Positions 16,529 through 64,000 of a stretch of 64,000 nucleotides of DNA are shown here, piece by piece. Below the pieces are notes generated by a model that worked only from the letters and a program-made list of their open reading frames with translations, searched no databases and was not told the DNA's origin. Source of the stretch: Diplosphaera chodatii (lineage: Eukaryota; Chlorophyta; Trebouxiophyceae; Prasiolales; Stichococcaceae). The stretch covers positions 248,001 through 312,000 of the forward strand of contig JAALGY010000001.1 of assembly GCA_032358165.1 (NCBI GenBank), written 5' to 3'. The position numbers were made by a program, and so were the translations under genes. The first letter of the stretch is position 1; the number at the start of each line of letters is the position of its first letter.

Positions 16529-17130
16529 TGTTTTTGCCGGCAGGGGCAGTGAGGCAAAAGCCTAGCAAGACAGCTGCTGCTGCTGCTGAGGGACGATTTG
16601 CCGGGCAACACTTGGACTCGCTGCGCATGTTGACGCTGGCAAGTGGGTGACTGCCCGTCCAATCTGGAGTGCAGGTACGCGCGTACTCGCATGTACGGGA
16701 CAACTTCCGGCAATGGAGACTGTGGAGACACCGGGCGGACAGTGTACTGCTGATGTGCATGGCCTGCCCTGTTCTGGTAAAGCAGGATGATGGGACATGC
16801 TCTCTTTGGTACGTTTGCTGCACGGTACTCCAGTTACAGCAAGTTACAGCGCAGTCATTGGCTCTCGATCCAAAATTGCAGTCATTCTCATGAGTACCGT
16901 ACCTTTCGCCTGATGTGCCAAAGCATAACTACCGTGTCCTAGTGTAGCCACTCCTTCGATGTAGGTTTACAGATAAAACAAACCAGCTACCTTCTACCTA
17001 ACAAATTAAGCCCGCGCCACTTTGCCCCAGCCTGCCAAATCTGTGGAACGCGTCCGCCTCCAGGGGGTCATTCCACTCCCACTGCCGCTGCTGCCTCTGA
17101 GGGGACACGCCCTGCTCCCAGGCACCATCC
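16529..17130. other. Intergenic region between ATPase start and epimerase end
   Basis: About 600 bp with no supported gene. It should hold the ATPase promoter and 5' UTR and the epimerase 3' UTR. Confidence 0.5.
16967..16971 (-). terminator. Candidate poly(A) signal (TGTAA) of the 4-epimerase
   Basis: TTACA on the plus strand, 160 bp past the epimerase stop codon, in an AT-richer stretch. This fits a green-algal TGTAA poly(A) signal. Confidence 0.55.
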
Positions 17131-18285
17131 TCACTTCTTGCCGTAGCCGTCCGGGTGCGTGGAGGCCCAGTTCCACTGATCGCGGCACATGTCTTTGATG
17201 TCCCGCTTCGCCTTCCAGCCCAGCACCTTCTCTGCTGTCTCGGTGGCGGCCCACACGGCGGCGGCGTCCCCCGGCCGCCGCGGCTTGATCTCGTACTTGA
17301 CCTTCCTGCCGCTGGCTTCCTCAAACGCCTTGATCATCTCCAGAACGGAGGTGCCGCGGCCGGTGCCCAGATTGATTGGGTCGCAGTAGGGCTTGGCGCT
17401 GCCCTCGATGTTTTTCAGCGCCGCCACATGGCCCTCTGCCAGATCCACCACATGGATGTAGTCCCGCACGCCGGTGCCGTCGGGCGTGTCGTAGTCGGCG
17501 CCAAACACGCCCAGGGCCTCCCGCTGCCCCAGGGCCACCTGGTGCACATACGGCATCAGGTTGTTGGGGATGCCCACTGGGTGCTCGCCAATCTCGCCTG
17601 ACGGGTGTGCGCCCACGGGGTTGAAGTAGCGCAGCAGCACGATGCGCCAGTCCTGCTCCGCCGCAAACAGGTCCCGCAGCATGTCCTCGATGATGAGCTT
17701 CGAGCGGCCGTACGGGTTGAGCGCCTCTAGCCGGTGCTTCTCGTCCAGCGGCGTGTACTCCGGATTGCCGTAGACCGTCGCGCTGCTGCTGAAGACCATG
17801 TTCTTGAGGTTGTGCTTGCGCATGGCCTCAATCAGATTGACCGCCGCCACCACGTTGTGGGTGTAGTACAGCATCGGCTGCGACACGGACTCGCCCACAG
17901 CCTTGCGCCCCGCAAAGTGCACCACCGCATCGAAGTTGTCTGTGGCGAGCGCTGCGTCGATGTCGTCAAAGTTCCGCAGGTCGCCCTTGATCAGCTTCAT
18001 CTTGGCCGCCTTGTCGCCGGCGAGCCTCTGCATGCGTGCGTAGCACTCCTCGAACGCATTGTCGAAGTTATCGATGATGGTCACCCTGTAACCGTTCTCG
18101 AGCAGCGCCACAACCGTGTGGCTGCCAATGAACCCGACGCCACCAGTGACGAACACCGCCTTCTCCGCCATGGTGCCTGATCCTGGAGTGGAGGTACCTC
18201 GACTATCGAGTCCCCAACGCTGCAGCGCTGCCAAGTCCGCCGCTGCCAACGCGACACAGACTGCCCCTGCAAGCCAAAGGTTCAT
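17131..18285 (-). CDS. GALE: UDP-glucose/UDP-GlcNAc 4-epimerase (intronless)
   Basis: Short-chain dehydrogenase-type epimerase interconverting UDP-Glc/UDP-Gal and, if the pocket allows, UDP-GlcNAc/UDP-GalNAc. The single open frame is 384 codons. From Met39 the protein is 346 residues, the usual family length. It has the NAD-binding motif TGGVGFIG (47-54), SSSATVYG (166-173), and the catalytic Tyr192/Lys196 in NPYGRSK. The C-terminus MCRDQWNWASTHPDGYGKK is plant-like. At the residue equivalent to human Cys307/E. coli Tyr299 it has Val344 (GDAAAVWA). A small residue here is associated with acceptance of N-acetylated sugars; applying that here is inference. The first 38 codons encode a hydrophobic stretch (MNLWLAGAVCVALAAADLAA) that could be a signal anchor, or translation may start at Met39. 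It is the only clearly intronless gene in the window. In Aspergillus the equivalent enzyme Uge3 feeds GAG synthesis. Confidence 0.96.
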   Translation of the reverse strand: MNLWLAGAVCVALAAADLAALQRWGLDSRGTSTPGSGTMAEKAVFVTGGVGFIGSHTVVALLENGYRVTIIDNFDNAFEECYARMQRLAGDKAAKMKLIKGDLRNFDDIDAALATDNFDAVVHFAGRKAVGESVSQPMLYYTHNVVAAVNLIEAMRKHNLKNMVFSSSATVYGNPEYTPLDEKHRLEALNPYGRSKLIIEDMLRDLFAAEQDWRIVLLRYFNPVGAHPSGEIGEHPVGIPNNLMPYVHQVALGQREALGVFGADYDTPDGTGVRDYIHVVDLAEGHVAALKNIEGSAKPYCDPINLGTGRGTSVLEMIKAFEEASGRKVKYEIKPRRPGDAAAVWAATETAEKVLGWKAKRDIKDMCRDQWNWASTHPDGYGKK

Positions 18286-21005: not shown

Positions 21006-25125
<4,120 letters not shown>

Positions 25126-26258: not shown

Positions 26259-28691
26259 CTACACCCTGTCGCCGGTGGCCCGGCGCTCCACCAGGGGCAG
26301 CCCCTCCTCGCTCGGGGCGCGGCTCATGCGCGACAGCGCCGCCGCCGCCACCGACTGCTGCGCCACCCGCCGCGCCGCTAGGATCTTGCTCGAGTTATAG
26401 TACATCACCTGCAGGTGGGGCAACAAGAGCAGAATGGGCTCATCGCCAGGCCTTCCAGGGCCAGCAGGTGCGCTGCCAATGAGCCTTGGAAATTTCATGC
26501 TCACCCTGATACCTCCTTGCGGTACAGCAACAGGGTCGGGGTGCGCACCGACAGGAAGGCGACTGAGTAGCCGATGAGGTTGAGGCGCGAGACCGGGGAG
26601 CGGTACAGCGCCACGCTGAGCCCGATCAGCAGCCAGTCCTTCACCACGCCGCCGATGTTCATGGTCAGCGCGCTGGTGCGTCCGATCAGCAGAAACACCT
26701 GGCAGAGGGACAAGATCTGCCATTGCTCAATTACAACAGGGTGGAGCATGAATTGGTTGCCATGCCACATACCAACAGATTGTAACATCCATACACGGGT
26801 GAACATCGACATAATACTTGTGAGTGCCATCAACACGACGGGGCATCGTGAGGTGCTGCGAAGAGCCTGCACAGGTGGGCACCCCCACGCCTGCTGGGAG
26901 CACATGCCCATGCAGCAGCAGCACCAGTGCTGGAAGATTATGGCTGCAAACACAGTTGGCGACAGAGGTGCCCTGCTCACCGACATGTTCAGGGCAAACG
27001 CTACCATTGCGTTGCTGATAAACACCACCGGATCCAACGCTAGTGGCTCGCCAGCCGCAAACATACGCGGGGCCTCCAGCGCGGCCCAGGGGATGGTCAG
27101 GAACCCCAGGCAGCAGGGCGCCACGTAGTACAGGGTGGTGACCGGGTTCAGGCGCAGCCCCCGCTTCTGCATCAGCACCTGCAGGGCGCAAGGCGTTTCC
27201 TGCTGTCAGACAGCAGCCGTCCAGCGCCGTGTGCTGGAGGCTGCAGCAAGCCTCTGATCTCGCTGGTGGGGCAGCCATGCGTCGCTGGGGTGGGACCTGC
27301 TGGATGTGTTTGTGTTTCGAGCAGAGGGTGTGAGGTCACCTGCACCAGCGACAAGCGCACTGCCTCCGCCACGATGGCCACCACCTGAGCTACGAGCCCA
27401 ATCAGCACGAAGTTGACCTGCGCATGCAGCACGAGGCCCTGCTTGGTGCAATGTGAACGTGTCAGCACGCTGTGTGCATGGTCTGAACGCAGAACTTTGC
27501 TGCACCCGAGCAGGGCCATCACATACAGCAGTACGTGGTGCTGTTCGCCATGTGAGGGGTGTCCGACATGGTGCTGCAGGTGGTAGGACTGTACATGGCG
27601 CAGCGTCAGGGCTGTATGTTGGCTCTTTGGGCAAGGAGGTGGAGCACCTCGCCGTAGGATGCGACGGCCACGCCGGCTGTGACGACCACCATGTTTACGG
27701 CTGTGCCGGGGTGCCATGTCTCGGTGCCCAGCAGCATGCCGACGATGAACACCGACGCTGGCATGAGCGCCTGCAGAGCGTTCCTCACCCCCCACTGAGC
27801 AGCTTGCTATGCCCTGGCTGAAGGCACAGCATGGGAGCAAGACAGGCTCACTCGGTGTGCGCAGCAGGTGCACAAGATCCTGAGAGCCGTGAGTGACTGC
27901 AGCGGTGCTGTCGGACCTGCTCAGCGAACCTTGAGCATCTGCGCAAAGGCGACGCTGATGTACATGACCGCGGTGTTGCCCAGCCACAGGTTCACGCTGA
28001 ACAGCGCACCAATCGGCAGGATCGCCTTCATGTACACCTGCCACAGCAGCAGCAAGCTGCCTGTTTATCAGCGTTGGCACTGCACATGCGGACCATCTTG
28101 ATGTGCTGTCTGTTGACACAGGCCATCGCTGCGGCGGATGAGTCAGGGTCCAAAGCACATCATGCAGACCTGTGGCCTAGAGCCATCGCCCACTCAGGAG
28201 CGCCTGCCAGCGGAGGTCTGGGGCTATTTTGAGTGCAAGCGCATGATGCATGTGTGTGGCTGCTGCTGCGACATGTAGTGAAGCACCTCTCGGGTGATGC
28301 CCTCGGTTGCTGGCACGTACCGCAGGCGCACCAGCACCGCGGCAGCCACCGAGCAGAACGCCATGTGCCACATCGTCAGCGTCACCGGGTATGGGAAGCC
28401 TGCAGCAGACCCTGCCTGTTCTGTTTTAAGGGACCCTCATACTACGGTGACATGCACAAGGGCCTACTGTGTGTGCCTTGCACGTGAGTTGCATGAAGGC
28501 CTCTGAATAGCAACTGCAAGGCTTTGGTTTGGCGCAGATGACTCACCGGAGTATGTGAGGAGGTACTTGTTGAACATGATGACCGTGGCGGACAGCACGA
28601 TCCACAGCAGCACGTAGGCGTATGACACCGCGCCCTCCCGCAGCATCAGCAGGTTGGCGGCGGCCATGGACTTGCCGGTTTGCCCTGCCAT
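26259..28691 (-). CDS. TPT/DMT-family sugar-phosphate or nucleotide-sugar transporter
   Basis: Multipass membrane carrier of the triose-phosphate-translocator branch of the drug/metabolite superfamily, resembling plant endomembrane family members of unassigned substrate. Eight exons read in order: LLWIVLSATVIMFNKYLLTY (about 28555-28620), FPYPVTLTMWHMAFCSVAAA (about 28330-28400), SVNLWLGNTAVMYISVAFAQ then MLK (about 27930-28010), ALMPASVFIVGMLLGTETW and ASYGE (about 27650-27780), FVLIGLVAQVVAIVAEAVRL, KRGLRLNPVTTLYYVAPCCL (about 27110-27170), TMNIGGVVKDWLLIGLSVAL (about 26600-26660), then a basic tail ending ERRATGDRV. All ten expected TM segments appear to be represented. The start is taken as 28691 (MAGQTGKS); 28742 and 28667 are also in frame. 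The substrate cannot be read from sequence; the neighbours suggest a UDP-amino-sugar or precursor, as inference only. Confidence 0.88.
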
Positions 28692-29674: not shown

Positions 29675-30767
29675 CTAAAACACACTTAGGGTCTGAGCTC
29701 GGTTCTCGGGTTGTGCTGAAGTGACTGATGCTACACGCATTGGGTGGAACCAGCTGCGAATCACCCACGAGGCTACGGGTCTGGGTCCCATATCAATGGG
29801 AGTTGTTGACGCAGGTGCTGCCATTGCAGAAGCCGCCGAGCTCACAGACATTGTCTGGGCAGCACGCCCATCCGAGCATGCCGCACCTGAACATGATATA
29901 CAAGAAACTGTCAGCCTCAGCACCCAACAGGTTATTGTAGACCGTTCAAGTAACAAGTATGGTAGCAGCACGCCGGACGGACATGCTGCACTGAGAGCAG
30001 CGCACCCGACGTCCCTGGTGACACCGACTGTGGCCCCGCCGCCCTTGTCGGCGTTCCTGCCGCGAGCTGTTCGCCTGTCGGTGCGGATCTTGAACTTGTC
30101 TGCAGCAGACATGCATGGCCGTCAAGGAATGTATCACATGTGCTTCCCGCAGAACCAATGTAGCATGGCACGGCCAGCCGCTGGCCAGCTAGCTGAACAG
30201 CACAGCATGCACCACTGCTGCAGTTGGGTCAGTTGCCATCCAGCCCAGCACCCCCGCCAGGTGTGTAACAGATGCTCACCGTCCGGAACGCAGATGGGCT
30301 GGCGCGCCCCCTTGTTATCAAGAACCCTCAGGCCGTGCTTGCACCGGCGACCATCTGTAGATGGCGGTGGGAAAACAGACATCAAGCAACACATACACGA
30401 TCTGTGAGAACAGTTCATGCAATGTTTCTCTGCTGAGGCTACAGCTCCGATCAGCACACACATGGCCCCAGACGAAAGGGAGGCTCATGAAGGGGCAAAG
30501 CGGATGGCAAGCGGACAAGCGATCGTGCTTACCACAGGCATACTGCAGGGCGGCGCCGCACGGCACACAGCCGGGATTCTGTGCGGCATCATTGTCACTG
30601 GTGTCAAGGGTCTCGCCGCTGGGGCAGAGCAGCGCGCCCCGCGGATTCTTCTTCACCAGGTCGCGCAACCTCGGCGGGTCACCGTGGGCGCTGCACAGCT
30701 GCGCAAGCAGCAGAATCGCAGCTGCAAGCAGTAGGAGCTGCGCTGAGAAGCTTCGTGCTGCCATCAT
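29675..30767 (-). CDS. Small secreted Cys-containing basic protein, unknown function
   Basis: I do not recognise the family. The start MMAARSFSAQLLLLAAAILL at 30767 is a clear signal peptide, with likely cleavage after CSA. Exon 1 continues HGDPPRLRDLVKKNPRGALL and a segment with paired cysteines (ALLCPSGETLD, NPGCVPCGAALQYAC). A good donor (GTAAGC) near 30530 joins in phase 1 to a second exon at about 30280-30350 (DGRRCKHGLRVLDNKGARQP then ICVPD). That joins in phase 1 to a third exon from about 30098 (KFKIRTDRRTARGRNADKGG). The third exon stays open to 29675; its distal part is low-information and may be 3' UTR or another intron. Position and signal peptide suggest an extracellular role. 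It is head-to-head with the Agd3-like gene. Confidence 0.6.
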
Positions 30768-36952: not shown

Positions 36953-41599
<4,647 letters not shown>

Positions 41600-47587: not shown

Positions 47588-50500
47588 ATGGAGGGCTCCA
47601 CTACGAACAGTAGCCTGGCGCTTCTGTTGTCAGGTGGCATCATCTTTCACCCTTGCTTAATCTTCTATGTGCACAAGCGCAGCATCCGCTCAACTTACTG
47701 CCAGCATCAGAGCAGTGTTCGTTTACTCTTGCCCGCGGCTGTCCTGGCCCACGCAGGAGCTGACATTGGCGTTGCACACACGGATAGTGCACACGCAAGT
47801 CACCACCTGACGTCCGTTGCTGGTCAAGCGCAGTTGTGCTGGTGGCGGTATTCGAGCGAGCCATCTTTCGCAACAGGGGCGTGCACTCGCTGCTGCGGCT
47901 GCTGCAGCTGGTGCTGTTATGCCAGCTGCCCGCTGTGCTGTTGCTCGGCGCCTCCCCCGGCCGCCTGCCCACCATCGTTGCCATCACGTGCGCTCAGCCC
48001 ATGTTACGGAGTTGGGACCAGCCCTGCTGTGCTGCCTGCGCCTGCCGGGCGCCCGCAGCCGTCAAGGTACCACCGTAGGCGGTTGCCAGTACCCATCTCG
48101 AGCATCTCAATCTTGGTGCAGGTCTGCGGGTGCCGGGCTGCTGGGCTTCGGCATCTCGTGCGTGGCTCGCCCGAGCCAAGCAGCACATGAAGCGAAGTCA
48201 GGCCAGTCTCAGCGCTGGTGGGCGCTGCTGTGCTGGTTGGCCGTTGCCCTGCTGGCTACGGCCGGACACCTGGGCTTTGCGGTCGGCCTGGAGGCAGCCG
48301 GCTTCGATACGCGCGCGGTCTTCCTCCAAGGTGCGTTCTTGACACCGACATATGCCCAAATTCAAGAGGCAGCGGCGCCAGGAGCCCACAGGGAGCACAC
48401 TGCCTGCGCCTTGGTCCTCGCCATGGGTGTGCTTCAGCCCCTGTTGTACTTGGCACACAAGACCAGCCTACTATCAGTATTTGCGTGCGTGCACCGGCTT
48501 TGCGACAACATCCTGGTCCGACTCGTGTCTGGCAAAGTCAGAGGCGGCAGCTGTGCCGGTCAGGCACAGTCTGCTTGCCTCCAACCCTGAGGCACAGTCA
48601 GCGCACACATCATGTACCAGGCGGCATGCGGGGCTGCGTGCAGGTCTGGACCACAGTGTAGCCTTCCTGGTGGCCACATGCGTGGGGCTGCCGGTGTTGC
48701 TGCTGGTGGTCTGGATCCTCAATGGCCTACGGCTGCGCTCGCGCTACTGTTGCAGCGTCATGGCACTCTACATTATCGCCAGCCTGCTGCTGGTCGCGCT
48801 GAGGTGGGCGCTGGTCCTGTGGTGGCTTGACGATGCTGACGGAACGCCTTGTGCTGTACAGCAAGTGGGGTAGCTGCTCAGCATGCCGGCAGGGCACCTT
48901 GTAAGCTGTCCGTGCATTGCTTGATGCCCTCATCGTTGAAGCACCACTTGGTATGTGCTGCAGGTCCTGGACGGACCAGTTCCTGGTGTACAAGTACGGC
49001 ACTTGGCTGGTGTGGCTGCTGGAGCTCATCTGGTGCCAGCTGTTCCTGGCGCTGGGCGCCCCTACAGGGCAGCTCAAGCGCAGGAGCGGCGTCATCCGCG
49101 GCTCCTTGGCCAAGCTGACCTGCGGCTGGCAGATCACGCACACCAGCCGGTCCAAGGCGGCGCAGCCGGTGCTGCCAGTCACCGCGCAGCAGGCAGCAGA
49201 GCCCGCGATCACAGCCGTCAAGGCGGATCTCCCAGCCAGCTCGCAGCCTGACAAGGATGCTGGGAAGGGTGGCGAGGATGATCAGGCGGCATCCGCTGCT
49301 CAGCCTCTGATGCAGCCAGCTGGCGAGGTGGCCGAGATGAATCTCAGCGACGCGCTGTCAGGTCTGACATGCTGCTCGTGCATCCCAGTCTGCTTGCCTC
49401 CTGGCCTCACGTGAGCACTCGACAGAGCGACTGCCTCTGAGTGCTGATCTGGCGGCCCGCGCTCTGCTGCAGTCGCACGGCTGGCAAACAACTGGATGCT
49501 GGGCGTCATGCATGCGGGAGATGAGCCGCAGCCCGAGGGGGAGAAGGTGACGGGCTACCATCGACTGCCCTGGCGCTGCGGTGTCGCTGACAGGTGCTCC
49601 ATGCCGTGCTGTGCTGGCTGCTCTGGTTTGCACAGCTGCAGTGGGCACCACCGTCTTCCATACTGCTGCTGCTTCCGGCGCCAGTTGGTACTAACTCCTC
49701 TTGTCTGTAAACAGGTCATGGGCGCAGTATATTGCCGAGGTGGTCCTTGTGGACAAGCTGAGCAAGCCGATGCCGGTGGGCCTGCCGCCGATGGGCGCTC
49801 TGCTGGGCGCATTCCCCGACATCTACTTGGGGGACAGCCCTGCAGCCGAAGCTCATCGGCGGGAGGCACTGGGTGCGCTGCTGCAGCGGAGGGGGGTGGC
49901 AGGCCCCGAGGGCGCGGCCTTCATGCCGTGCATTGTGGCGCCCCTTGGCGCGACGGCGCCAGACTGCGAGACCGCGGCCGCCCGCGTGCTGCACGTGCTG
50001 CATGGGGGCCTGCAACGCGGGCTGTGGGCCAAGCTGCCCGCCGCCGGCCATGCGCAGCAGGCTACCAGCAGCACCGCCGCCGACATGGCCTCCATCAGCA
50101 GCCTCACGGTGCGGTCCCAACGTTCTGCCCTGTGCTGCCAAGTCTTTTGCTTGGAACTGCTCACATGCGAAGCAGACTCAGGAAGCTACGGTCCCTGCTC
50201 ACGACCGAACGGCCGCTGCTGAACCCCTGGCATCCTTTTCGCTGCACCAGGTGCGACTGGAGGCGCTGAAGCGGGACGCGCAGATGCCGGCGGCGTCGGC
50301 GCTGCCGCTGGCGGGGCCCCTGGTGTCGGTGCTGCACCTGCTCGCTGCCGACATCCCCGCGGGCCGCATCGAAGTGCACCTGTGCCCCCGCATTTCCCTG
50401 ACCGCCGAGCCCCCAGGTGCAGGACTGCCACACAGCCTGCTTCCAGTCCTCCTCAAAGTTGTGTTGAACGCCAAGCTCATTGTGGCACCCTAGGTCCCAC

Positions 50501-53500
50501 TGCATCACGTGAATGTTGCATCACAATCTTGCTCAGAGCGCTTGTTACATAAGCTTACAATGTGTTTGAGTCCAGCGTGAGACCCCCCTGTTGTGCTGCG
50601 CAGCATGCTCGCCGGTGCGCTTTTGGGCCGTGGCGTCCCGGGACCCAGCCGCAGATGGCGCCACACAGGTCTTCGTGGACTCGCTGTGCCCGGACCTCCT
50701 GGAGGCCCTGGTGCACTGCCTGCTCCTGCAGGAGGGCCACTCGCCCGAGGTGGGCGCCTTTAGCTTGACTGGTGGCAACGTCTGACAGCGGCGACCCCGG
50801 ATGCTGGGTGAAATGAACTGGCTGTTTGCGGGCCATTTTCGCAACATAGAGTATGTGCCTGACGCTATGCTCCTCCTTGCTGCTGCCAGCTCGCGCGCCT
50901 GGCGGAGGCAGCAGTGAGCTGCAGCTCCAGCGGCGGGGCGCACGCCTTCACGGGCGGCCCCAGGGGCGGGCTTGCGCTGCTGTCCGCCCGCATGAGGGAG
51001 GAGCTGCAGGGCGTCACCCCTGCCGACCTGCTGCAGGTACGCTTTCGAACCCAATGGTTTCAAGTGACAAGCTCAATATGCTCCAGCAACAGCCTGGAAC
51101 CCGTTCCATCATCTGTACGAGTTTGCATGACCTGCACAAGTTTGCATCTGCAGCACCTCAGGTCCGCCGTCACTGATGCACCTCAGTGGCATTCTAATAA
51201 CAGGCAGTGGCAGCCGGGGCAGCAGGGCTTGCCGACCTGGCCGCCGAGGCGCCCTCGCACTACAGCAGCGCCCAGGCCAAGAAGCTGGCGGCGCTGGCGG
51301 CGCAGCAGCAGGATGCCCTCACGGCGGCGGTGGACGCCACGGCGCTGCAGCTGGCGCCTGACGCCGACTGGATGCAGGTGTGCGCCTGTGCTTTTGAGCC
51401 TCGATGCTGCCCAGCGGTGCCTCTGCAGATGGTGTAGTCTACTCTGGTGGCGGCCCCTGCCGAACCTTCTCCGACCTTGCCCTCACCGCTCGTTGTTGTT
51501 GCCATCATGCGGAGGCACCACGTTAAGCTGTGTCGATGTGCGTCCCGCAGGCAACACATGCGGCGTGGTCAGTGCTGGCCGAGCATTGCGTCATCCAGCA
51601 CCAGGCAGAGCAGCATCCCAGCTATGAAGCTCCCAAGGACCCGAAGGTGACATTCCAGTTGATGCATTGGCTGGCTGTTGTTTTTGCGGTGAATAATCTT
51701 TTCCGTGTCACACTTGCGCTGCCTCGTTCCAAACTTCAGACGAAGGGCGGTGGCCAGGAATGTCAGGCTGACACGTCTGCGCACACACACAGGAGCTGAG
51801 CCCTAAGCAGTACTGGGAGGAGCTGATGGCGGTGGTGACCTATTGGATGGCGAAGGAGGGTGCCGCAACCACCGGCACAGTTTCCCTGCTGCGCCAGGTG
51901 CAGGTCATCTGCCAAGAGACCAGCGTCAGTGCAACATTGAGCTCCCGGAGACAGGCATCTGATCCGCCATCACAGCACCTCAGCACCGGCTGTCCATGCC
52001 TGACCCTGGATGTCGATGTTTCCGCAGGGGCAGCGGGTGTGCCTGGAGACGGCGATCCCGGGGCTGCTGAACGCGATCGTGGAGAACGCGAACCACAGCG
52101 AGGACTCCTTCCTGCAGGACCCCGACATCATGGTTGTCTACCTGGAGCAACTGGTGAGCGAATCCAGCGGTGTAAGGGGTCCAGGTGGTATGTGCTTTGA
52201 TGAGGCAGCGGCTGGAGCACCTCATGTCAGTGAGCTGCGGCTGAAGACATTTCTGGGGACTGCAGGGCATCTCCAACGAGGTGGAGCCCTACTTTGGCGT
52301 CAACAAGTTCCAGCTGGGGCGGCTGCTGCGCGCACGGCTCCAGCAGCAGCTGCGCTCCAGTGCCGGTGACTGATAAGACGGCCCCTGCGCTGCATCCTTT
52401 GTTGCCGCGTGGTAGTCTAGGGCCTGCTGGTGCTGCTCCTGCATTGCAATGGCTGGCATGCTGTTTCGCTAACTGGCTTGCTGTGCGCCGCGCAGAGGTT
52501 GGCAAGGTGAAATCCGAGCAGCCGCCAGCCACTGAGCAGCAGGCGCTGCCAGCCAAGCCCACGCCCCCCGCAGCAGCGGTGGACGCGCACGCTGGCTTCA
52601 CCGTCGCCGTCGGCAACGGCCTGTTCTGGCTGCTGCCCTACGTCATGTACTGGGCATCCTCCACCACGCTGAAGAGCGGCATGTTCGACAACGGCCGGCT
52701 GGACTACGACCATGCCAAGTGCGGCATGCTTGGCATTGGCATCGTAGTACATCTTGATGCATGTCGTGCGCCATGACATTCAGCCAACTGCTGCTAAGGT
52801 CATGCATGCATACTTATCTCTGATGTTTGCTCATCCATCTGCAGGTGGATGTTTTGGGGGTTCTTTTGCGCCTACCTGGCAGTCGGTGCCTTCTTCAACC
52901 TGCTGCTCATGATGCTGTGCTACCACCAGCACCGCTTTGCTGCGCCCGCCCGCAACGTGCTCCTGTGTCAGGTGAGCTGCTTTGGCACTACAAACGTGAC
53001 ATTGAACGCCGACATCACGCTGCTGCACTGAGACGGTCACCCTCAGAGATTGCATACCCCAGCATCTGTCCATTGCCTAAGTGATCCATGCAAGGGCTGC
53101 ACTCCACGGTGGTGTCATACTGCTGGCACAGGGCCTTGTTGCCTCCATCCTTTTTTACACCGTGGCGGCGCCGTTCCCAGGACTCTATGTGCTCCTGCGC
53201 TACAATTCTTTGGCCCTGGCATGGTTTGCCAGCGTGATCTTCTGGCTGCTGTGTGTCTACCTGCAGATGGTAAGCTTGCCATGTCATCAACCCATGAGTG
53301 CAGTGCCTCCACCCTTGCTTCCGTGCTAACAGTGCGAGTGATGTTTGCTTGTGTGTGCGTGGACTGCTTGTCTCCACTGGTGCCTACCTTCTGTCAGGAC
53401 TGACGTGCTGATGTGTGCTCCTCTGCAGCTGCTGCTTATCTACACCACAGCCGTCAGCAACGACGCCTGGGGCACGCGCGCAGGCCGCACAGTTCTGGCC

Positions 53501-56500
53501 GTCTTTGTTGCTCAGGTGCCACCTGACGTCATGACATCGATTTGCAGCGCATCACTGCATCGAGATGCCACCAGCAGTGCTGAAGCCTAACGCTTGCGGT
53601 CCCGATGCAGGTTGCTTTCAATCGGGCGTCCTATGCACTACCCCAGATCAATGCAGTGGCCTCCAACGTTGGTGGCCTGGCGCTGTTCCTTGTTATCTCG
53701 GCAGTTCTGCTGTGGTTCCACATGCGGGACCATGTGCGACTGTGCGCCGAGGCTTGCGGCGTCACGGCCGCCACCGACATCGAAACTGTCAGGTATGCCC
53801 GCCATCCTGCACGCTTGGAGGCCACAGCAGGCCTACGAGCACATGCTTATGTGTGCATTGGCCTGTTACACTTCAAGGGGGTGAAGCCTAGTATCAGGCC
53901 AAAACCGCATGTGCTGTGCAGTGGCCCGGCTGTGGAGCTGCTGTTTGCGCTGCACAACGCAATGAACGCCCAGGCGCTCGCGCCAGCCAAGCTCGAGCCG
54001 AAGAAGCGGACGGCCATCGCCGCCAAGGCGGCCACGGTGCTGAAGCAGAAGCTGCGCACGATGCGGCGGCTGCGGCTGCCGCTGCTGTACGCCGACTACT
54101 CCTGGGCGCTGCCCCAGGGCGGGCTGAACCACCTCATGATCACCGTGCCCTACTGGCTCAGGTGACTGTCCGACGCTGCATGGTTTGGGCGGCCAGCCTG
54201 CACACGCCAACACTTGCATGTGTTATTGCCTGCTCAGTTTGAGGTGCTCAAGCAGGTGCATTGCCCAGAGAGCTGTTGTCATCGACGCTGACTGCTGTGC
54301 ATTGGCCTTGCCACAGTGAGTGGGCGGTCGGCAACGCATGGCTTGGCGAGAACACCGGGGCCATGCTGCTGGCGACGGCGTATGTGCTGCTGGCGGGCTC
54401 CTACCTGGAGTGGTGCATGATCCTGCGCGCCCGCTATGAGGTGTGCAGCACAGCAGGGCACAGCAGGGATGGTACTGATGTGGTGCCCCCCTGCCCCATA
54501 CATATGCCACAGGATACCCCCTGCCTTGCAAACCAGGAACTAAGGCCAGTTCCTGTGCTACGAACCAACCCTAGACAAGCGCATGACGCCGACAGCTTGA
54601 ACTGTATGGGTGTGCAGGCGGCACGCACGCTGCGCAAGGGTGCTGCGGGGGCGACGCCGTCGCACAAGGGGCTCCTCGACCGGTTCAAGGGCTTCCAGAT
54701 GCGGACGCTGGCGCAGCTGGTGCACTGGGCGGTGCTCATGGCGGGCGCGGGACTCCTGCTGGTGATGCTCCTAGAGTCCACCAAGGGGGACCCCAGCGTG
54801 GCCAGCTTCTCAGACTACCTTAAGGTGAAGCCAACCTCCGTTCAATTGCCGTGTTGCCTTATCCTGCACTCACAAGCAAGGCGATTATGGGTGTGTTGAA
54901 AACCTGCTGCGTGGTGGCTGCCATGTACTGTGAGCATCTGTTACAACATCTGCTACTGCTTCGTTGTACCTGGATAATGAGGTCATGCTGTGGTCGTGTA
55001 TATGCAGGTGGTGCGCAGCCTGCACTCGCAGCTCGTCAGCTACTGCATCATGGTCGGCGGTTTCAGCTGCATGATTCTGGTGCGGTGGCAATACACAATG
55101 CGGCCAGCACTGCCAGCACCTCGGCGCGACGTCGCTGCAATGCTGGGCTCACTGGCCGTCATGCTGGTGAGCTGCTTACAACATCAGCCTGGTAGCATGC
55201 CACGCGTCGCAAGGGGGTGTGCATTGCACTGCTGTCTGGTTCATGCCGCCACATCAGCGAACAAGCTGCACATAAGCGGCAGCAGGCATGTGTCGAAACT
55301 CCTGCATGGCAGTCAGGGCCTGTACTGGGCGGTCTGTGCTCCTGCAGGCGGTGGCGCTGCCCCAGTCCAAGCTGCTGGACAGCTTCCAGTATGTGCCGCC
55401 GGTGGCGGTGGCCACTACGGGGCTGGCGTACCTGGCGCTGGCCAACCTGCTGCACAAGATGGCGGTCGACAACCTTTGGGAGCGCTCCGCCACCCAGTGA
55501 GCCCTGTCCTTCGCTCTCATCTGCACTGGACCCATGACAGCAGCTCCTGCACACACATCGTTCTTCTGCAATGCCTAATGCAGTCCGCTTTGATCAATTT
55601 GCTTGCTGACTCTGGCAAATGGCACCGCAGGCTGAAGAAGGTGATGAGGTTGGGACGCCACACGTCTGGCCAGCATGCGCTGTCCTGCACGACTGTTGAG
55701 CCCGGGCAGCTGGAAGCAGCAGAGTGGCGGCTGCGCAACGGCCGCCATGTCACCGCCCGGGTGTCCCCCAGCCGCGGCCTGGGCGCCAAAGTGTCCGAGG
55801 TGAGCCTGCTTCAAGATTGTAGCCTGCGGTTCTGCACTGATGCCTGTGGGAGGGTAACCCATTTGTTGTCGTGTGAAAGGATGTGTATCACGTCTTCCAG
55901 CCAACACGTCATCTGCGGGTGCCACTCAGGCGCTGGCCGGCTGGCAGCGGGAGGCAGCGGCGGCGTACGCCGACCCGCGCTCCGCACGGCTGGGTGCCCT
56001 GGCACAGGCCTACCCCGAGTTCGCCCCGCTGCTGCCGGCGGTGGAGGCGGGCTGGGCGGCCGGGACCACCAGAGCGCACCTGGTCCCCTTCACCGCCATC
56101 AACCCGACTGGTGGTGCCCCCCAGGTGCGTCCCATGATATATGCCTGTGCCTGTGAAGCCCGAACAACATGCTTTGCAGTGGGCTTTCTTCGCTGGCAGT
56201 TTTCTCACTGCACCTGTGACATCCTTACCAGACTTTCTCACTGCACCTGTGACATCCTTACCAGACTGCACGACATGTATGCCTGCAGTTCTACGCACTG
56301 GGGGTGCCGTCAGACGGTGCCCTGGACGTGTACGTCGCAATTGATGCGCTGCCGGAGCGGCTGACAAGCCTGGCCGCTGGTGGCAGCAGAGATGCCGACC
56401 GGCTCACGGACCGCGTCACAGAGGCTGTGCTCCTGGAGTCTCTGATCCAGTGGCAGCGCAAGGCTGGCCTGGTGAGACCTGGTTTTGAACATGTATCTCA

Positions 56501-59500
56501 TCCTATACTGGAGGTCCTGAGCATTGTACAATCGCATCTGCTAGTGGCATCAGCTAAGTTATTGCTGCCTCACACACGCAGGCTGCCAGCGGTGTTACCA
56601 CCGCGCACCTGCATGCCTGCATGTGGGAGTTCAGGTGCGGGGCCGCCCTGCTGCCAGCACGGGTGGCAGAGGAGCTGCGCAGCCTGCCACCCCGCGCCCT
56701 GTCGGCAATGGTGCGGCCGCCGGCACTTGTGCGATCCGCAGTGGCTGCTGCAAATGCACTCTGGGCCTGGCCCTCTCTCAATCAATGCTACCCACATCAT
56801 CATGGCCTTTGCTGAAGATCGGAGCGTGCTGAGCAGGTGCACCGCACGCCGCTGAGCATCGCGAATGGGGTGGTGCGCCACCTGGCCGCCCTCCCTGCAA
56901 CCCTCGGCGAGGCCAATGAGGTCAGCTGTCCACCAGTCAAGGAACCATGTGCTGTGCATCTCTGGCTGCTGGTACCGTACCAATGCTTGACTTTGCTTCC
57001 AGGCTGTGGTCAACACTGTGTCCTATTGAACCCTAAACCCTATTGTGTCCTATACATGATGCAGGAGGCAGACGACCTGGTTGCGCATCTGACGCCGGCA
57101 CTGCTGAATTCGGCGTGGCCGCTGCTGACAGCCGAGGGCCGGTGCGCTCTGCTTGGCGCCTGCCACGCCGCCGCCACCGCAGCTGCAAAGCCAGCGGCAG
57201 TGGACCCAGCGCTCACAACATCGTACACCGTGCCCGCAGCCACCACGCTGGTGGCGGCCCTGGAGATCGTCAGCTACGGGCAGCAGCGCACGTTGTGCCG
57301 CGCCTCCCCTGCCGCGTCCAGCACCCAGGAGACTGCTGACGACACGGCCGCACCTGCCGCCGAGCTGGACGATGTGAACGACTGGTCCAAGGAAGCAGCA
57401 GCTGCAGCGTCACGCCGTGCAGCGCAGCGCTCGGCGCTCGCGGCCACTGCAGCCCTGGCGGTGCGGGCGGCAGCCCTGGAGCAGGGAGCGCTGGACCCTG
57501 AGGACCGACGATCGGCCAAGCCCGCGGCTGGGGCTTCCCGGAGGCGGTGGAATGTGCTGTCGCACATCTCCACCGCCATGTCGACTGGCCTGCGGCTGCT
57601 GTTCCTGGCGGCGATGGGCGACGTGGCCTTCTTCCCCGAGGTACATGATGCTGAGCTGCGGCTGCTGGTATTGCCACACCTGACTTGCGTTTTACACCTC
57701 TTTCCCTGCACTGCATGCAGCTCCGGGGCAGCAAACTCAACAGCGGTACTGATGCCAAGCTTGCTGTACTGACAGGCTGACGCAGCGCTGAGCGGGAGCT
57801 CTGGACTCAGGCGGGCTCTGCTGCTGCCGCCGCTCAAGGCCCTGCAGCTGTTGGCGCTCTGCTCTCAGGTGTGTTTCAGCTGCCGCGAAAGCTACTGCAC
57901 AAACAGTCGGCAGTCGTGCTATTCAGCAGTTTCTGGTCTCTCTGTACAACCTGTGGTTGATCAGCATCCCTCATGTTTGCTTTGCACAGGCGGCGGCGGA
58001 GGCCCTGTGCCGCAGCATGCTGTGGGCGCAGCCGGGCATCTACACCTGGCTGCTGGCCGCGACCCGCAAGCCTTTCGCTGCCATCGCCGCTTACAATGCG
58101 GAGGCTGCGCTGAAGCTGGTCCTCACCTTTGGCCGGCACGGCATGTCCAGCAGCCACCTGCGCACGCTGGCCTCGCCAAAGCGGGTGTGCAGCTTGCAGC
58201 AAAATTCTATGATGGATGCCTGTTCTGCAGGGGTGAAAGTGTTACGGCAACGAAATCACTGCTTCGCCAGCAGCAGAAGCAACACAGCCCACCGCACCTC
58301 CATGCTCCTCACAAATACAGGATGGGCTGCTTACTCACACGCTGTGTCTGCGCACTGCAGCCGGCGCGCAGCAGCAGCAGCAGCGGCGGCAGCAGCGTGA
58401 GCGGGTCCACCTGCAGCGCCGACTCCGACGACGAGCTGGGCGCGGCGCTGGCGGAAGAGGGTCTGGCGCCGGATTCCGAGGCGCTGCTGACCGCCAGCCT
58501 GCTGGGGCCGCGCTACCACCCCGACATGACCATTGGTGGGTTTGTTTGAGGGTGCAGGCCAAGGCTGCAGACCATGCTCTCACTAAATTTGCCGTCCCCC
58601 TCCACGACACAGCCAACCGCAGCAAGGCAGGCTTGAAACTTGCTTCCTCTGTCGTGTGCAGTGATTGCTGAGACGACGGTGGGGGCGCGGCTGACGCCCG
58701 GCGGCGACTTGGCACAGAAGACCGCCTTTGTGGTGCTGCCGGCGCCCCAGGGGGGCTACTTCCGCCGCAAGGCTGCCGCCCCCAGGTGCACATAATCCCT
58801 GATGGAACTCGCTCGTCCAGCCTTGCTCTGGTATGAACAGCCTTCAACCTTTCTGAGCGCAACCCTAAGGTTGATGGGCCTGCGATCTGCAGGATGCCTG
58901 TGTGGCAGTACGATGCTGTCGCCAAAACCGTCACCAGGTGGCGGTACAACCCCCTGGGCTCCCACATCCCCATCTGCAGCGAGGTGCGCCATTGTTTCTT
59001 CTCGAATGTCAGCCGCTCAGTATACTTTCGGAGAGAATCTTGCTTCAGGGACACCTGATGGACGGCTGGGGGTTCCTGCATAGCCGGTGGAAGCATTCGA
59101 GGCCCAGTCAACCGCCGCCTACTCGACACTGTAATAATTTTAAGCATTCTTTCAGGCCTGATGTGGATGTTTTGTGGCACCAACAGGTCTGGGACGGCGT
59201 GACGTCCCAGGAGGCCGCCGTGCTGCGCTTGCGCAAGCTGGGCGGGCCGTCTTCGAGGTCCACAGTGGTGAGCGCACCTCGCCCACTGGCGGCAACGGTT
59301 GGGCAGCTGATGCTTGAGCAGTATATGGTCTTATGTACGTTCACACTTTGTGCTGAGAGCTGACACGACTCCTGGTCATGCAAGCATGCATGCGAGCTCT
59401 GATCACATGGCATGGTTTGCGTGTTGGTCCATCGTTTATACCAAGCCTTTGACTCCTGAATCCTGCAGTATGACGACGCCGGCCGTGTGAAGTCGCTGTC

Positions 59501-62500
59501 CATGGAGTCGGCGCTGGCGGGGGACAGCACGGCGGTGGCCGCCACGCTGCACTTCCTGCCAGCGGCTTGGCTGCCGGCGCAGGCGGCCGTCTTCCACTTC
59601 GCCACCGGCACCATGGCGCTGGCCGACGGCGAGCGCTGCGGCGTGGAGCTGAGCTGGCGGAAGGAGGAAGCGGACGGCGGAAGGCGGAAGCAGCAGCAGC
59701 AGCACCCGGCGGCCCCCTTCCCCCGCACCGTCACGGTGCGTCACCGTCTACCAATCATGAGCGGCAGGCGGCCTCTGGCAGTGACTGCTTTGCTGCATGT
59801 TGGCCCGACCTGCTGGGCAGCCGCATGGTGTGCTCGCCACATGGCCACAGCATTGAAGCGGAGGACGTGATGCGTGGTTTTGAGACCGTAGGTGACCACC
59901 AGCGAGTTCGCCTGGCGGCTGGAGTGCGACCCGGTGGCGCCGGTGCCCGATGGCGTGCTGGGCGCGCCCACCCTGTGGCCCTCCGAGCCCGTGGTGCTGG
60001 GCTGCAGCATGCGGGCCGAGGCCGAGGGCCCCGCCTCCACGGCGCCCTGGATGCCGGCCTCCACCCCGTCCTGGGTCCCCCACCTGCTGAAGGTGCGCCG
60101 GTGCTGCCCCGTCGCTGAAGTGCGACCCATTGCACGCACGACCCTGTGGCCGCGAAGGCAGCAAGCAGCGGTACGGTCGGTGCAGCTAGGGGCTGCGAAG
60201 GTTTCTGGTAGTAGCTCTTCTGCTCACGAGTGTTAGCAAACATCTGCAGGTGCTGGCGGTGCAGCTCGCGCCATCAGTGTGGCAGGAGGCGCCCTTCCTG
60301 CCCCAAAGCATCAGGTGATGCACCAGACACTAAGCCACAGCAGTGTCCCCCAGCATGACAAACTTCCACAGGAAGGCTGAAGACAGCTTGAACGTTGATT
60401 ACCGTGACCCAGGCGCCCCACGCCTTACCTGGCACTGCTGCTCTGCCTTGGCTCCTGTTGTCTAACCGTGAGTTCGTGCTGTGCAGCCTGCACGGCGAGG
60501 CCGGCAGCGCGGTGGCGCACCAGGCGCCGGCCGCCGACGCCGGCGCGTCCCGAGCGCTGCTGTGGTGGGCGTGGAAGGGCGGCGCAGAGGAGCTGCAGCG
60601 CCAGCTCATCGCCCCCCCTGCAGCAAAGGCCGGCGGCCTCAGGGCGCGCCTGGCCGCGGCAGCGGCCCGCCTGTGCTGCCGGGGCACCCGGGGCACCCGG
60701 AAGCAGGATGCACAGGCCGGCAAGAATGGGGAAGCCGCACCGCAGCCCGCAACAAAGGTGCAGGCGCCCAAGCAGGCGCCGGTGCCGGTGCTGGACGGTC
60801 TGATGGCCACGACGCTGGATGAGGCGATGCTGCGGGGGGACCCGATGCTGGCGCCCTACTGGCGGTCCCGTCACCACCTGCAGGGCAAACGCGCCGCTTT
60901 CATTGCTGCCCACCGCCCGCTGCTGGAGGTGAGCCCTCCCAGGGCTAGGTGTAAAGCAGCGGCTGTCTGTTGCGTATCCCCACCATCGAACTGCACAGGA
61001 TTGTGTTCGGGCCGAACCTCTGATGCACTGTGTGCGTTCTGCAGGCAGCAATCGGCAGCCAGCTGCTGCGTGACATGGGCGCCTTCAGCCACCTGGCGCA
61101 CAGCATCGACTCCCTGGCAGCGCTGTCCACGGTACAACCCCCGCTCCCTGTACTGCCTGGCGGTCAGTGCTCTTGCCGCCTTCGATATCCCTTGGCTGAT
61201 GTGGCACCCATTCCATGTCCTACAGGTGCCCGGTAACTCATACGGCGGAGGCGCCTCCACCCCGCCGCCTGCGCAGCCGCTGCCGCCGGCGGCTGAGCTG
61301 GCCACGGCTGCAAGGGCCGGCCCGCAGATGGCGTGGATGTGGCGCCGCCCCACGGCCCGCACCACGATGCCTGCCGCCGCTGCCGCCGCCGCAAAGCAAA
61401 GTGCGCACTGGCACCATATGGTCGTTCAGCGCCGTTCGATGTTGGAGTGCAATTGGAGTGCAATGTATGAGCTGCGGCCACCTGGAGTGCATGTGTCAGC
61501 ATTCATTCCTTGCACGTCTGTTCGCTCTAACTTCGAGAGGATGCACATGTGTTGACCTGCTTCTCGCATCCCCTGCAGAGGTGGTGCAGAAGGCCCCCGA
61601 GCTGGGACTGGTGGCCTCGCAGCTGGCGGGTGGGCTGCCCGCGACGGCGGCCACCAAGCTGCGAGTCACGGCCATGGACTCCGGCACCTACCCCATGGAC
61701 GGCGGCGGCGTGGCGACCTGCCGCCAGGTCGTGCTGGACGGGCTGCCCGACGTGCAGTGGAGCTGCCAAGCCGAGCTCGCAAACGATCTGAAGCAGGTAG
61801 ACTCATGAGCACCCTGGTCGATGGCAGCAATGTAGCCTGTAGGCAGTTCCATTTCTTGCTTAGTATTCCGTGCAAGCCTCTGTCTCGATGGGGCTGTCGT
61901 CCGATGACGTGGTACCTTGCTTGCAGGTCATGCCCAAGTTCGTGCCGGGGCAGAATGTCGCGCGGGTGGACCTCATTCCGCAGTGGGACACGCAGCACAA
62001 CTCGCCCGCGCAGTCCCTGTCCGCCGACGTGCCCTTCCACGAGCTGGCCCGCAGGTGCGCCTGCTGTTTCTTGATGCTGGGTTTTGCAGTGTTGAATGCA
62101 GCACTTCGCTCTTGACCCCTGCCTGCTGGTCCTTATTGTTGTCAAAGCTGTGTGACGCATCCCCCCCCCCTTCCTGAGTAGCTTGAAGCGTGCTGACAGC
62201 ATTCGACGTGCTGCTGATGCAGGAACAAGGCGACCACCAGCCAGGCGATCGCGCAGCACTTCCTGCCGGCGCTGGGCGGCGTGCTGGGCGCCATGTGCAA
62301 GGCGTCCTGCCTGAGCGCGGCCGATCTGGAGGCCCTGGCGGGCAGCGTGCTTCAGATGCACGCCTATTTCCAAGCCTACAGCTGGGACATCACCTGGGAC
62401 TCCAGCATGGTGCGCCGTTCAGTCTTCTGTGCAAGGTTGCTCGTGCGGCCTGCCAGTCAGCTCTGCATCGCACCCGCATCCATCAGGTTTGGCAGGACCA

Positions 62501-64000
62501 GCAAGGCTGCGAAGATGCTTCTGCAGTGACTTCCTGACCAGCATGTCTCACCTGTGCCTGTTCCCCCGTCTTGCAGGTGCGGCAGTTTGTCAGCGGCATG
62601 CTGAAGGCGACGCAGGTCGGCATGTACGGCGACACCCGACCGGCGCCCTCGCCCACCGAGATCACCGCCTTCTACGACCTGCTGCAGCACTACCTCAAGT
62701 CGCTCGCCTCCAACCTGCCTCCCGGCGATGTCGTGCACTCCTCCCACCACAGCCTGCAGGTGGGGCGTTGCCCCAGAGATGGGTGACCAAAACAAGAACA
62801 CTTTGCAGTCGTGTGTAATGCAGCACGGGACGGCAGTACCTATGATCAGTGGCGCGGTCGATTGGGTATCCATGTGGCTTTGCCTGTACACGATGTTGAG
62901 ACAGTACCTCACGATGAACAGGCGCTGGGGGGTCTCGTTGTGCAGCGCAAGGAGAACCAGGCGCTGCTGATCTGGGACCACGGCGTGCTGATGCGTGAGA
63001 AGGTGACCAGTCAAACGATTCGAGTCTTGACCTGTCAGATGGCATGCCGTCTCACCTGTGCAGGGGCTTCTAGGTAGCAGGTGGCACTTCAGTGATCTCA
63101 ACCTAGTACAGGACTCCTTGCCTGGGCATGATTTGCGACTGCTCATCTTTTTCCGTCGTGCGAAATCAGGTGATATACTGGGACTGCCTGGAGAGTCGAG
63201 CCCTGCCCCAGTTCGTGCGCGAGCAGCTGATACGGCTGCATCGTGTCACGGGGCAGTGCCTGTATGCTGCCGCCGACTTCATCATCCCCTGCAACGCCAC
63301 CTTCAACACCAAGTGGGAGGTGTGCAGGCTGACACACCGCCCATGCCGAGCAGCCTTGGGAACTACATCTGGCCCACTACATGATGCACCGCTACAAGCT
63401 TGTCTCCACTTCAGACAGTGACAAGTCAGCGCAGTCAGCATCCAGACAACTGTCACCATCTACAGGCGTGGCTTGGGGCGCCAGTCAGCCGAATCAGCCC
63501 GCTGCTGAACGCGGTGGACATCGACCAGTACCCCATCAGCACCACGCCGCGGCCGCCGCGGCCGACGACCGTGATGCTGAGCCACGTGTACCCGCTGAAG
63601 GACATCGTGTCGGCCATCCGCGCCGCCGCTATCATCGTGCACACATACCATGTGACAGGTGCGCAGCTCGCTGCAATCCTCAAGCGCTAGCACTTGCTGC
63701 CATACTGCATAGCCTGAGGCGGAGCCACTTGATACCTATACCTCAAACTGGCTCAGCTAACCCCTGCATGGTGATGATTACCTGCAGACTACCAGCTGCT
63801 GGTGTACGGGTCGCTGACCTTCGACGCGGGCTACGTGGAGCGCTGCCGCGGCCTCATCACAGCCCTGGGCCTGACCAACAACGTGGAGCTGCGCGGCCTG
63901 GGCAAGCCCACCGCAGTGCTGGCCCAGGGCTGGTGCTACCTGCAGGTCAGCAATCCTTACCCCTAATGCAAGGCACAAAGTCAACTGCAGTGCCTCCTCT
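47588..64000 (+). CDS. GTB3: Giant multipass membrane protein with PelF/Gtb3-like GT4 glycosyltransferase domain (3' end off window)
   Basis: Probable polymerase of the amino-sugar polysaccharide. It starts in perfect Kozak context (GCCGCCATGG) at 47588. The N-terminal part is multi-TM: LRLLQLVLLCQLPAVLLLG, WALLCWLAVALLATAGHLG, VAFLVATCVGLPVLLLVVWI, YIIASLLLVALRWALVLWWL (to about 48830). A long soluble region follows (about 49000-52500). A second TM block comes next (NGLFWLLPYVMYW about 52620; FFCAYLAVGAFFNLLLMMLC; FASVIFWLLCVYL; LALFLVISAVLLWF about 53670; AGAGLLLVMLL; on to about 55450). Another large soluble region lies at about 55900-62400. The GT4 domain is at the right end: GDVVHSSHHSLQ, ALLIWDHGVLMRE (about 62960-63000), ADFIIPCNATFNTKWE (about 63270-63317), LNAVDIDQYPIS, VMLSHVYPLKDIVSAIRAA (about 63570-63630), YQLLVYGSLTFDAGYVERC (about 63793-63850), KPTAVLAQGWCYLQ. 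The ExxxxxxxE motif lies beyond the window. Roughly 45 exons; junctions near 48067-48122 are unresolved, and a split into two genes cannot be excluded. Confidence 0.78.
56201..56266. repeat. 33-bp perfect tandem duplication in an intron
   Basis: Two identical copies, 56201-56233 and 56234-56266, each beginning TTTCTCACTGCACCTGTGAC. They lie in an intron of the GT4 gene, just before the exon starting FYALGVPSDGALDVYV. Confidence 0.95.
62570..64000 (+). other. GT4 glycosyltransferase domain (N-terminal half)
   Basis: Exons here carry the most recognisable part of the giant protein. They are an N-terminal Rossmann half with VVHSSHHSLQ and WDHGVLMRE (compare the HGIYxRER loop of PelF-type enzymes), then the hinge AVDIDQYPI and the start of the donor half SHVYPLKDI (compare the PIKD motif of PelF). 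This family uses UDP-sugars, UDP-GalNAc for the Pel and GAG enzymes. The frame is open to the exon ending CYLQ, where a donor follows. Confidence 0.85.

Follow-up and report, generated by a model that had tools for sequence, protein, structure and literature searches.

A 64,000-nucleotide stretch of the Diplosphaera chodatii genome (C1:248001-312000, C1 being contig JAALGY010000001.1; hereafter the window) was analysed and found to be the middle of a gene cluster of about 145 kb (C1:227168-372684). All five functions of the fungal galactosaminogalactan (GAG) cluster are linked on this contig (227-373 kb) and again on a second contig, C51. The catalytic motifs of the deacetylase (Agd3) and GH114 proteins are kept, the second copy is conserved and the genes measured are under purifying selection. 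Judged by its gene content, the cluster probably serves the alga in making a partly deacetylated alpha-1,4-linked (N-acetyl)galactosamine polymer, from precursor to finished chain, and it suggests that some green algae build a galactosamine polymer for their walls or matrix. To an earlier sequence-only reading of the window the analysis added a clustered UDP-N-acetylglucosamine (UDP-GlcNAc) pathway, the diverged second copy and the multiplied Agd3 genes with their Cys-rich partner.

Gene models and family assignment

The assembly comprises 85.6 Mb in 55 contigs, labelled C1, C51 and so on; coordinates given without a contig label are positions in the window. Gene models were built ab initio using a two-strand finder trained on the window and its flanks. 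Single-strand gene finding had fused nearly all genes (two genes, then 19) and was replaced by the two-strand model, which itself fused GNA1 with AGM1 and GFAT-A with the spherulin gene; these were split by hand from motifs. The splice pattern was clear, with donor AG/GTG and acceptor TGCAG/G (the slash marks the junction). Families were assigned by Pfam, NCBIfam and solved-structure matches. Assembly-wide family counts were obtained exon-wise and are lower bounds, as diverged domains can escape: the DUF3492 profile gave no match in the whole assembly, although the domain is present in the synthase. Because of this miss, the absences of chitin synthase, of a further UAP1 and of a further GNA1 are weak.

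The gene order in the window, from left to right, is GNA1 with AGM1, UAP1, a heavy-metal ATPase, GalE, spherulin-4 with GFAT-A, a TPT transporter, Agd3, GFAT-B, a NIDO/Pro-Lys-rich protein and a giant synthase. To the right of the window, C1 carries three further Agd3 genes (the first only partly modelled, with GH114 between it and the other two), followed by another spherulin gene and a third GFAT. Another synthase locus is found on the left side, and C51 has a further partial synthase copy.

Deacetylases and Cys-rich partners

The sequence-only reading had placed four polymer genes close together in the window, for a UDP-sugar 4-epimerase, a spherulin-4/Sph3-like protein, an Agd3-like deacetylase and a large membrane protein with a Gtb3/PelF-like GT4 domain. 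All four were recovered, from position 17131 to past the window end, and in the assembly profile search the Agd3_CE (11/11) and synthase GT4 (27/27) matches were confined to C1 and C51. Profile searches across the contig found all four of GH135, CE18, GT4 and GH114.

The Agd3-like CE18 deacetylase with a CBM87 domain (31326..36139, + strand, 16 modelled exons) matched Agd3_CE (1.8e-65) and CBM87 (PF25116, 3.5e-23). Its sole solved-structure match was Aspergillus Agd3 (6nwz, 6.3e-52), the alignment extending to residue 706. The catalytic motif residues of Agd3 are given as D377/D378, H510/H514, R613 and M666/H668 (PMC7229062, available part). The DD, HxxxH, PR and MFH motifs of 6nwz align in the window protein, and all four were found in each of the seven Agd3 gene models (four on C1, one of them partial, and three on C51). 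When two algal rows were aligned with 16 of the 21 protein matches, D, D, H and H were invariant and R, M and H nearly so.

Every one of the seven Agd3 genes stands head-to-head with a gene for a Cys-rich protein, with 381-559 bp between the start codons. The window partner (29811..30767, - strand), found by tblastn paralogy, is small with a hydrophobic N-terminus and is divergent to Agd3 across an intergenic stretch of 558 bp (30768..31325); it is plain from the map that the two genes have a common promoter region. One paralogue was scanned and gave no Pfam match at E<=1. Its likely role is that of a secreted helper or of a protein that binds the polymer, and it may be co-regulated with Agd3.

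The motif AGGTGCA was present in all seven Agd3/Cys-rich intergenic stretches on C1 and C51 and in 0 of 30 shuffle sets, by eye mostly 20-40 bp ahead of the Cys-rich start codon. It could be a regulatory site or a splice site in the 5' untranslated region; since the stretches are paralogous and the latter is possible, no regulation is claimed from it.

Synthase and epimerase

The Gtb3/PelF-type membrane synthase GT-A (48760..64000, + strand, continuing to 65192) matched Glycos_transf_1 (PF00534, 5.2e-14) and has a PelF-type N-terminus, DUF3492 (PF11997, 5.4e-6), at 26.8 bits against a cut-off of 23.3. The synthase gene model has 50 exons; the window model is without the first exons, which by eye probably begin at about 48.2 kb. 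PelF (NF038011) was the best NCBIfam family for the GT4 region of the paralogue GT-B. Synthase models of 2453 and, on C51, 2891 residues showed seven and 12 hydrophobic segments, respectively, in a crude scan.

In the uge3 role stands a UDP-glucose/UDP-GlcNAc 4-epimerase, GalE (17131..18171, - strand, single exon, 346 residues), which matched TIGR01179 galE (3.1e-125) and, as its best solved structure, UGE2 (8wop, 3.4e-132), which we take to be from a plant. A GalE paralogue with introns was found on C13/C53 (10 modelled exons in the C53 copy); the cluster gene is intronless. The presumed UDP-GlcNAc gate residue is Val in the cluster GalE and in the intron-bearing C53 copy alike; it was tried as a test of bifunctionality and set aside as not decisive.

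Hydrolases

Copy 1 of the spherulin-4/GH135 (Sph3-like) gene (18735..~20039, - strand) matched PF12138 (9.7e-18), with GIFLDE and VTFE motifs in its open reading frames. The cluster has two GH135 genes; the paralogue at C51:1618547 matched PF12138 (3.6e-37; family cut-off 30.2 bits) and the Sph3 structure 5c5g (2.5e-11). In the alignment to this paralogue, the DE pair of Sph3 and the FE-motif Glu face identical residues. These are presumably Asp166/Glu167/Glu222, which would fit a chain index equal to the residue number minus 50. The published catalytic pair is Asp196/Glu222 (PMC12054363, available part), whose place in the algal chain is tentative.

The fifth function, GH114 (ega3), was reported missing by the sequence-only reading. 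This holds for the window but not for the contig: GH114 exons lie at C1:343664-346056 (window coordinates 95664-98056), about 32 kb past the window end. The PF03537 assembly search located the family at C51:1638485-1639192 and, more weakly, at C1:343799-343987. The C51 gene is a single frame of 339 residues that matched PF03537 (3.8e-55) and the Ega3 structure 6oj1 (7.4e-36), and the catalytic Asp189 and Glu247 of Ega3 (PMC12054363, available part) align with identical residues. On C1 the gene is broken up into exons in different frames, and the PDN and NEQC motifs fall in different ones. Several further GH114 matches lie together on another contig pair (C45:499112-504645 and C17:169861-176558), and one 545-residue protein of the public collection (P0030) carries spherulin-4 and GH114 domains in one chain, linking both hydrolases.

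The hydrolases and deacetylases might instead be secreted as defensive or digestive enzymes, breaking or modifying the galactosamine matrices (Pel, GAG) of fungi and bacteria in biofilms or lichens. Ega3, Sph3 and PelAh are described as cutting Pel, native or re-acetylated (PMC9135694, available part), and the Agd3 and GH114 genes are multiplied, some GH114 genes lying away from the cluster. Both copies of the cluster, however, hold a synthase, an epimerase and the precursor pathway, and a deacetylase that made a foreign matrix stickier would be a poor weapon; such a role is considered very unlikely.

Precursor genes and transporter

A phosphoacetylglucosamine mutase gene, AGM1 (1..3789, - strand, the model extending left to -309), matched AMG1_III (3.9e-38) and PGM domains I and IV. 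The neighbouring glucosamine-6-phosphate N-acetyltransferase-like gene (4486..5478, - strand) matched the GNAT family (8.7e-12) and is taken to be GNA1 from its motifs and pathway context. Divergent to it is a UAP1-like UDP-N-acetylglucosamine pyrophosphorylase gene (6273..9697, + strand, 3' end uncertain; UDPGP 4.2e-33). Two glutamine-fructose-6-phosphate transaminase genes follow, GFAT-A (21018..25125, - strand; TIGR01135 exon matches C1:269018-272542) and GFAT-B (36910..41699, - strand, start exon uncertain; TIGR01135 545.7 bits, cut-off 418.05). With GFAT, GNA1, AGM1 and UAP1 the cluster would carry the whole route from fructose-6-phosphate to UDP-GlcNAc. A TPT/EamA-type transporter (26259..28691, - strand; PF03151 1.2e-18), whose C51 counterpart matched a hexose phosphate translocator (5y78, 3.4e-10), may carry a sugar or nucleotide sugar.

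All four AGM1 and all seven GNA1 matches were confined to C1 and C51. PF01704 matches outside the cluster, on C22/C13, were stronger than the UAP1-like one and were read as UDP-glucose pyrophosphorylase; if this is correct, the UAP1-type gene is likewise confined to C1 and C51. Outside these contigs the exon-wise search, a lower bound, recognised no further locus for GNA1, AGM1 or UAP1. GFAT was found at three loci each on C1 and C51 and at one each on C46 and C49, with single TIGR01135 matches on C26 and C27.

Open and interrupted forms of one gene recur: GH114 occupies several frames at C1:343664-346056 and one at C51:1638311-1639330, and GFAT is one open frame at C46:1816976-1819126 as against exons at C49:1982193-1986319. 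Intron loss in GH114, GFAT and GalE suggests repeated replacement by processed copies.

The clustered pathway stops at UDP-GlcNAc, ahead of the epimerase, and the gate residue is not diagnostic. Both points would suit another amino-sugar polymer, such as a chitosan-like wall glycan of glucosamine or a heteropolymer of glucosamine and galactosamine, made by the same families with shifted specificity; the walls of trebouxiophytes may contain gluco- and galactosamines (PMC8523416, available part). On the other side, Agd3 (CE18), GH114 and GH135 are all described in fungi as acting on an alpha-1,4-linked galactosamine/N-acetylgalactosamine polymer (PMC7229062, PMC12054363, available parts). The chitin synthase profile PF03142 gave 0 candidates in the assembly, a weak negative since the same exon-wise approach missed DUF3492. 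We regard a different amino-sugar polymer, chiefly one of glucosamine, as unlikely though conceivable.

Second copy and selection

C1 and C51 are collinear across the cluster, with DNA identity of about 70-79% in most long blocks and 67-91% overall (GalE 91%, lowest listed block 67%). On the identity of the long blocks plain haplotypes were rejected, and the two contigs were read as homeologous or hybrid subgenomes.

The ratio of nonsynonymous to synonymous substitution rates (dN/dS) between C1 and C51 was calculated from well-aligned codons only, with GH114 and the partial Agd3 left out. Across the enzyme and transporter genes measured it was 0.041-0.223: GalE 0.041, UAP1 0.066, GNA1 and AGM1 0.079-0.081, the GFATs 0.080-0.147, TPT 0.138, the Agd3s 0.113-0.203, the spherulins 0.162 and 0.209 (95 and 192 codons) and the synthases 0.178-0.223. 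Values were higher for the NIDO protein (0.361) and the Cys-rich proteins (0.458-0.505). The ratios are low; the measured enzymes have therefore been kept functional in both copies.

Housekeeping UDP-GlcNAc and galactose genes could in principle lie merely beside wall genes by chance, as unrelated-looking genes (the ATPase and C2H2-like proteins) stand between them and GalE and GFAT have paralogues elsewhere. Against this, a 149-kb span, about 0.35% of half the assembly, takes in several families for which no other locus was recognised, the genes have stayed together in two copies diverged to mostly about 70-79% identity, and they encode successive steps of a single pathway. A chance neighbourhood is extremely improbable.

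Proposed pathway

The steps of the fungal GAG pathway are described in PMC4817252, PMC7229062, PMC12054363, PMC11356417 and PMC8224951 (available parts). By analogy, GFAT, GNA1, AGM1 and UAP1 would convert fructose-6-phosphate to UDP-GlcNAc, from which the GalE-type epimerase would make UDP-N-acetylgalactosamine (UDP-GalNAc), and also UDP-galactose from UDP-glucose; the polymer may contain galactose. The Gtb3/PelF-type membrane synthase would polymerise and export an alpha-1,4-linked GalNAc-rich chain, and the GH135 protein would trim the nascent acetylated chain. A secreted Agd3-type CE18 (four genes on C1, three on C51) would strip part of the acetyl groups outside the cell to give a cationic, adhesive polymer, whose deacetylated stretches GH114 would cut. 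The genes would presumably be co-expressed and the product placed in the wall or matrix.

Several observations weigh against this assignment. The gene models use no transcript evidence, and the C1 GH114 came out of the finder in two pieces. The cluster is looser than the fungal one, with GFAT, the ATPase and other genes intervening. A third Agd3 domain, PF25117, reported in most fungal matches, was not reported for the algal protein in the Pfam scan. GT-B scored 99.7 bits in the PelF equivalog family, just under the cut-off of 100, which was also missed by one Trebouxia (86.6) and one fungal (73.1) homologue. The presumed gate residue is the same in the cluster and C53 epimerases and does not settle specificity for UDP-GlcNAc. 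Sph3 position 196 is Glu in the alga if the guessed numbering offset of minus 50 holds. A spherulin exon also lies outside the cluster, on C49, as do more GH114 genes on C45 and C17.

A broader proposal, to which we give even chances, treats the locus as one selected-for block of a photosynthetic eukaryote that starts at fructose-6-phosphate and ends in a polygalactosamine, exported and in part deacetylated. In it the alga would have brought its sole UDP-GlcNAc genes (GNA1, AGM1 and UAP1) into the cluster, each Agd3 gene would have a divergent promoter region in common with a member of a new Cys-rich secreted family, and cationic galactosamine matrices would be an old trebouxiophyte trait, possibly serving to stick to surfaces, partners or fungi.

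Galactosamine polymers have a central part in the biofilms of fungi and bacteria; with the full gene set in a green alga, the system now reaches relatives of plants. The cluster offers a candidate gene basis for the amino sugars said to occur in trebouxiophyte walls (PMC8523416, available part) and a test case in algae of primary (UDP-GlcNAc) genes clustered with wall genes. The synthase, Agd3 and the Cys-rich partner are targets for studies of flocculation, biofilms and algal-fungal contact.

Origin

That the host is an alga is supported by 56 exon-level matches to the chlorophyll a/b-binding family in the same assembly, by the position of the synthase with Trebouxia and by the plant-type structure that best matches the epimerase. 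The closest relatives of the synthase were two Trebouxia proteins (P0142 and P0143; 42% identity over the searched GT4 region), followed by a metagenome protein (34%), Sphaeroforma (32%) and then fungal or unnamed proteins (27-28%). In a midpoint-rooted tree of ten of the 11 matches (P0152 left out), which carries a long-branch warning, a long branch united the three algal rows with Trebouxia (100/100) and set them apart from the six fungal or unnamed rows.

For Agd3, 16 of the 21 protein matches were from named fungi, five were unnamed and none was from a named alga; the search scored only the 7,999 candidates sharing most words. The bacterial contigs yielded eight Agd3 relatives from 46 pattern stretches, and six pattern matches in the viral contigs contained no relatives. 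The Agd3 tree used 18 of the 21 protein matches (without P0011, P0012 and P0019) and seven of the eight bacterial loci (without L042). The algal Agd3s formed one group (100/100) on a long branch, beside three chytrid rows (87/70, long-branch warning) and apart from six of the seven bacterial rows (100/99); Agd3 groups with eukaryotic CE18. One bacterial locus, L036, grouped with fungi and may be a contaminant.

The GH114 tree was built from 37 of the at least 120 matches listed (P0022-P0059 without P0024). The cluster gene fell together with a transcriptome protein and the C45 paralogues (100/97), next to a group that holds a Micractinium protein; five rows labelled alga (P0022 by assumption) did not form one group, two changes being needed. 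Branching with unrelated families, which the sequence-only reading had named as evidence against itself, did not occur: the CE18, Gtb/PelF-type and Ega3 relations hold.

Horizontal transfer of the whole cluster from a fungus concerns origin and would be compatible with the polymer pathway proposed here. The prevalence of named fungi among the Agd3 matches and the adjoining chytrid rows speak for it, as does the available part of PMC7229062, in which CE18 is named only from fungi and bacteria. It is opposed by the GH114 grouping with a transcriptome protein and by numerous introns that share a splice pattern (Agd3 has 16 exons, the synthase model 50). Given the Trebouxia grouping of the synthase and the plant-type best match of the epimerase, a recent wholesale fungal transfer is unlikely, and we hold transfer of the whole cluster to be improbable. 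Single genes such as Agd3 may still have been transferred long ago.

Other neighbouring genes

A gene presumed from its motifs to encode a heavy-metal P-type ATPase with a His-rich end (10498..15800, - strand, gene model; dN/dS 0.087) is present in both copies, in each case between UAP1 and GalE. Its role may be to provide the deacetylases with the metal on which they depend, or it may be a passenger.

A NIDO-domain protein (43686..46431, - strand; PF06119 3.2e-18 on the first 168 residues) has long Pro-rich/Lys-Pro-rich tandem repeats, through which its reading frame is uncertain; it is perhaps a wall or matrix protein. NIDO-domain proteins recur in the cluster and at its left edge (43686-46431, C1:208513-210303 and C51:1677414-1680012), one of them carrying long PPSPPP and TKPKP repeats. 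Low-complexity proteins were found inside the cluster at C1:334334-336686, C1:339257-341158, C51:1640576-1643820 and C51:1645352-1648636. Some have C2H2-like Cys/His motifs (GCQKRF..LWKLRQH, GCQRRFKELWMLRRHC) that fall under the Pfam cut-offs, and these are possible regulators of the pathway.

Comparison with known systems

Among the leading titles of the literature search, none describes such a cluster in an alga. In the fungal GAG cluster (Aspergillus, Neurospora, Metarhizium, Verticillium) the five functions are uge3, sph3, ega3, agd3 and gtb3, with uge3 flanked by the four others (PMC4817252, available part), and all five are linked in the alga. The catalytic residues of Agd3 and Ega3 are kept, and the synthase is of similar size with a membrane part and a C-terminal GT4 domain; the fungal synthase VdGtb (2856 residues, 11 transmembrane segments) is similar in build to the 2891-residue C51 model. 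The fungal genes flank one another directly, whereas the algal ones do not (GalE at C1:265 kb and GH114 at 344 kb, with GFAT and others between). The algal cluster covers about 145 kb with two synthase loci, four (C1) or three (C51) Agd3 genes and two GH135 genes, and it adds three GFAT genes, GNA1, AGM1, UAP1, the TPT transporter, the Cys-rich partners and the NIDO protein. Its epimerase is of plant type, and its Agd3 and synthase are about 26-32% identical to the fungal matches. On the map several gene pairs are divergent, which may bear on co-regulation.

The bacterial pel operon shares a PelF-like GT4, a proposed alpha-1,4-linked galactosamine/N-acetylgalactosamine product and hydrolase and deacetylase functions. 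As far as the available parts of the sources describe it, PelD, PelE, PelF and PelG are separate proteins in contrast to one giant algal protein, the PelA hydrolase belongs to GH166 whereas the algal cluster has GH135, GH114 and CE18, and the operon of Pseudomonas aeruginosa is without precursor genes, unlike the algal cluster. Bacterial agd3-GH114 operons likewise combine CE18 with GH114, a glycosyltransferase and a membrane protein (PMC7229062); their identity to the alga is low, and the available part of that source mentions no UDP-GlcNAc pathway. In Trebouxia the giant GT4/DUF3492 proteins (WJX77_007445 and ABBQ38_012755) are annotated as hypothetical and no Agd3 was among the 21 Agd3 matches; their homology to the algal synthase reaches beyond the GT4 region into parts of the membrane half.

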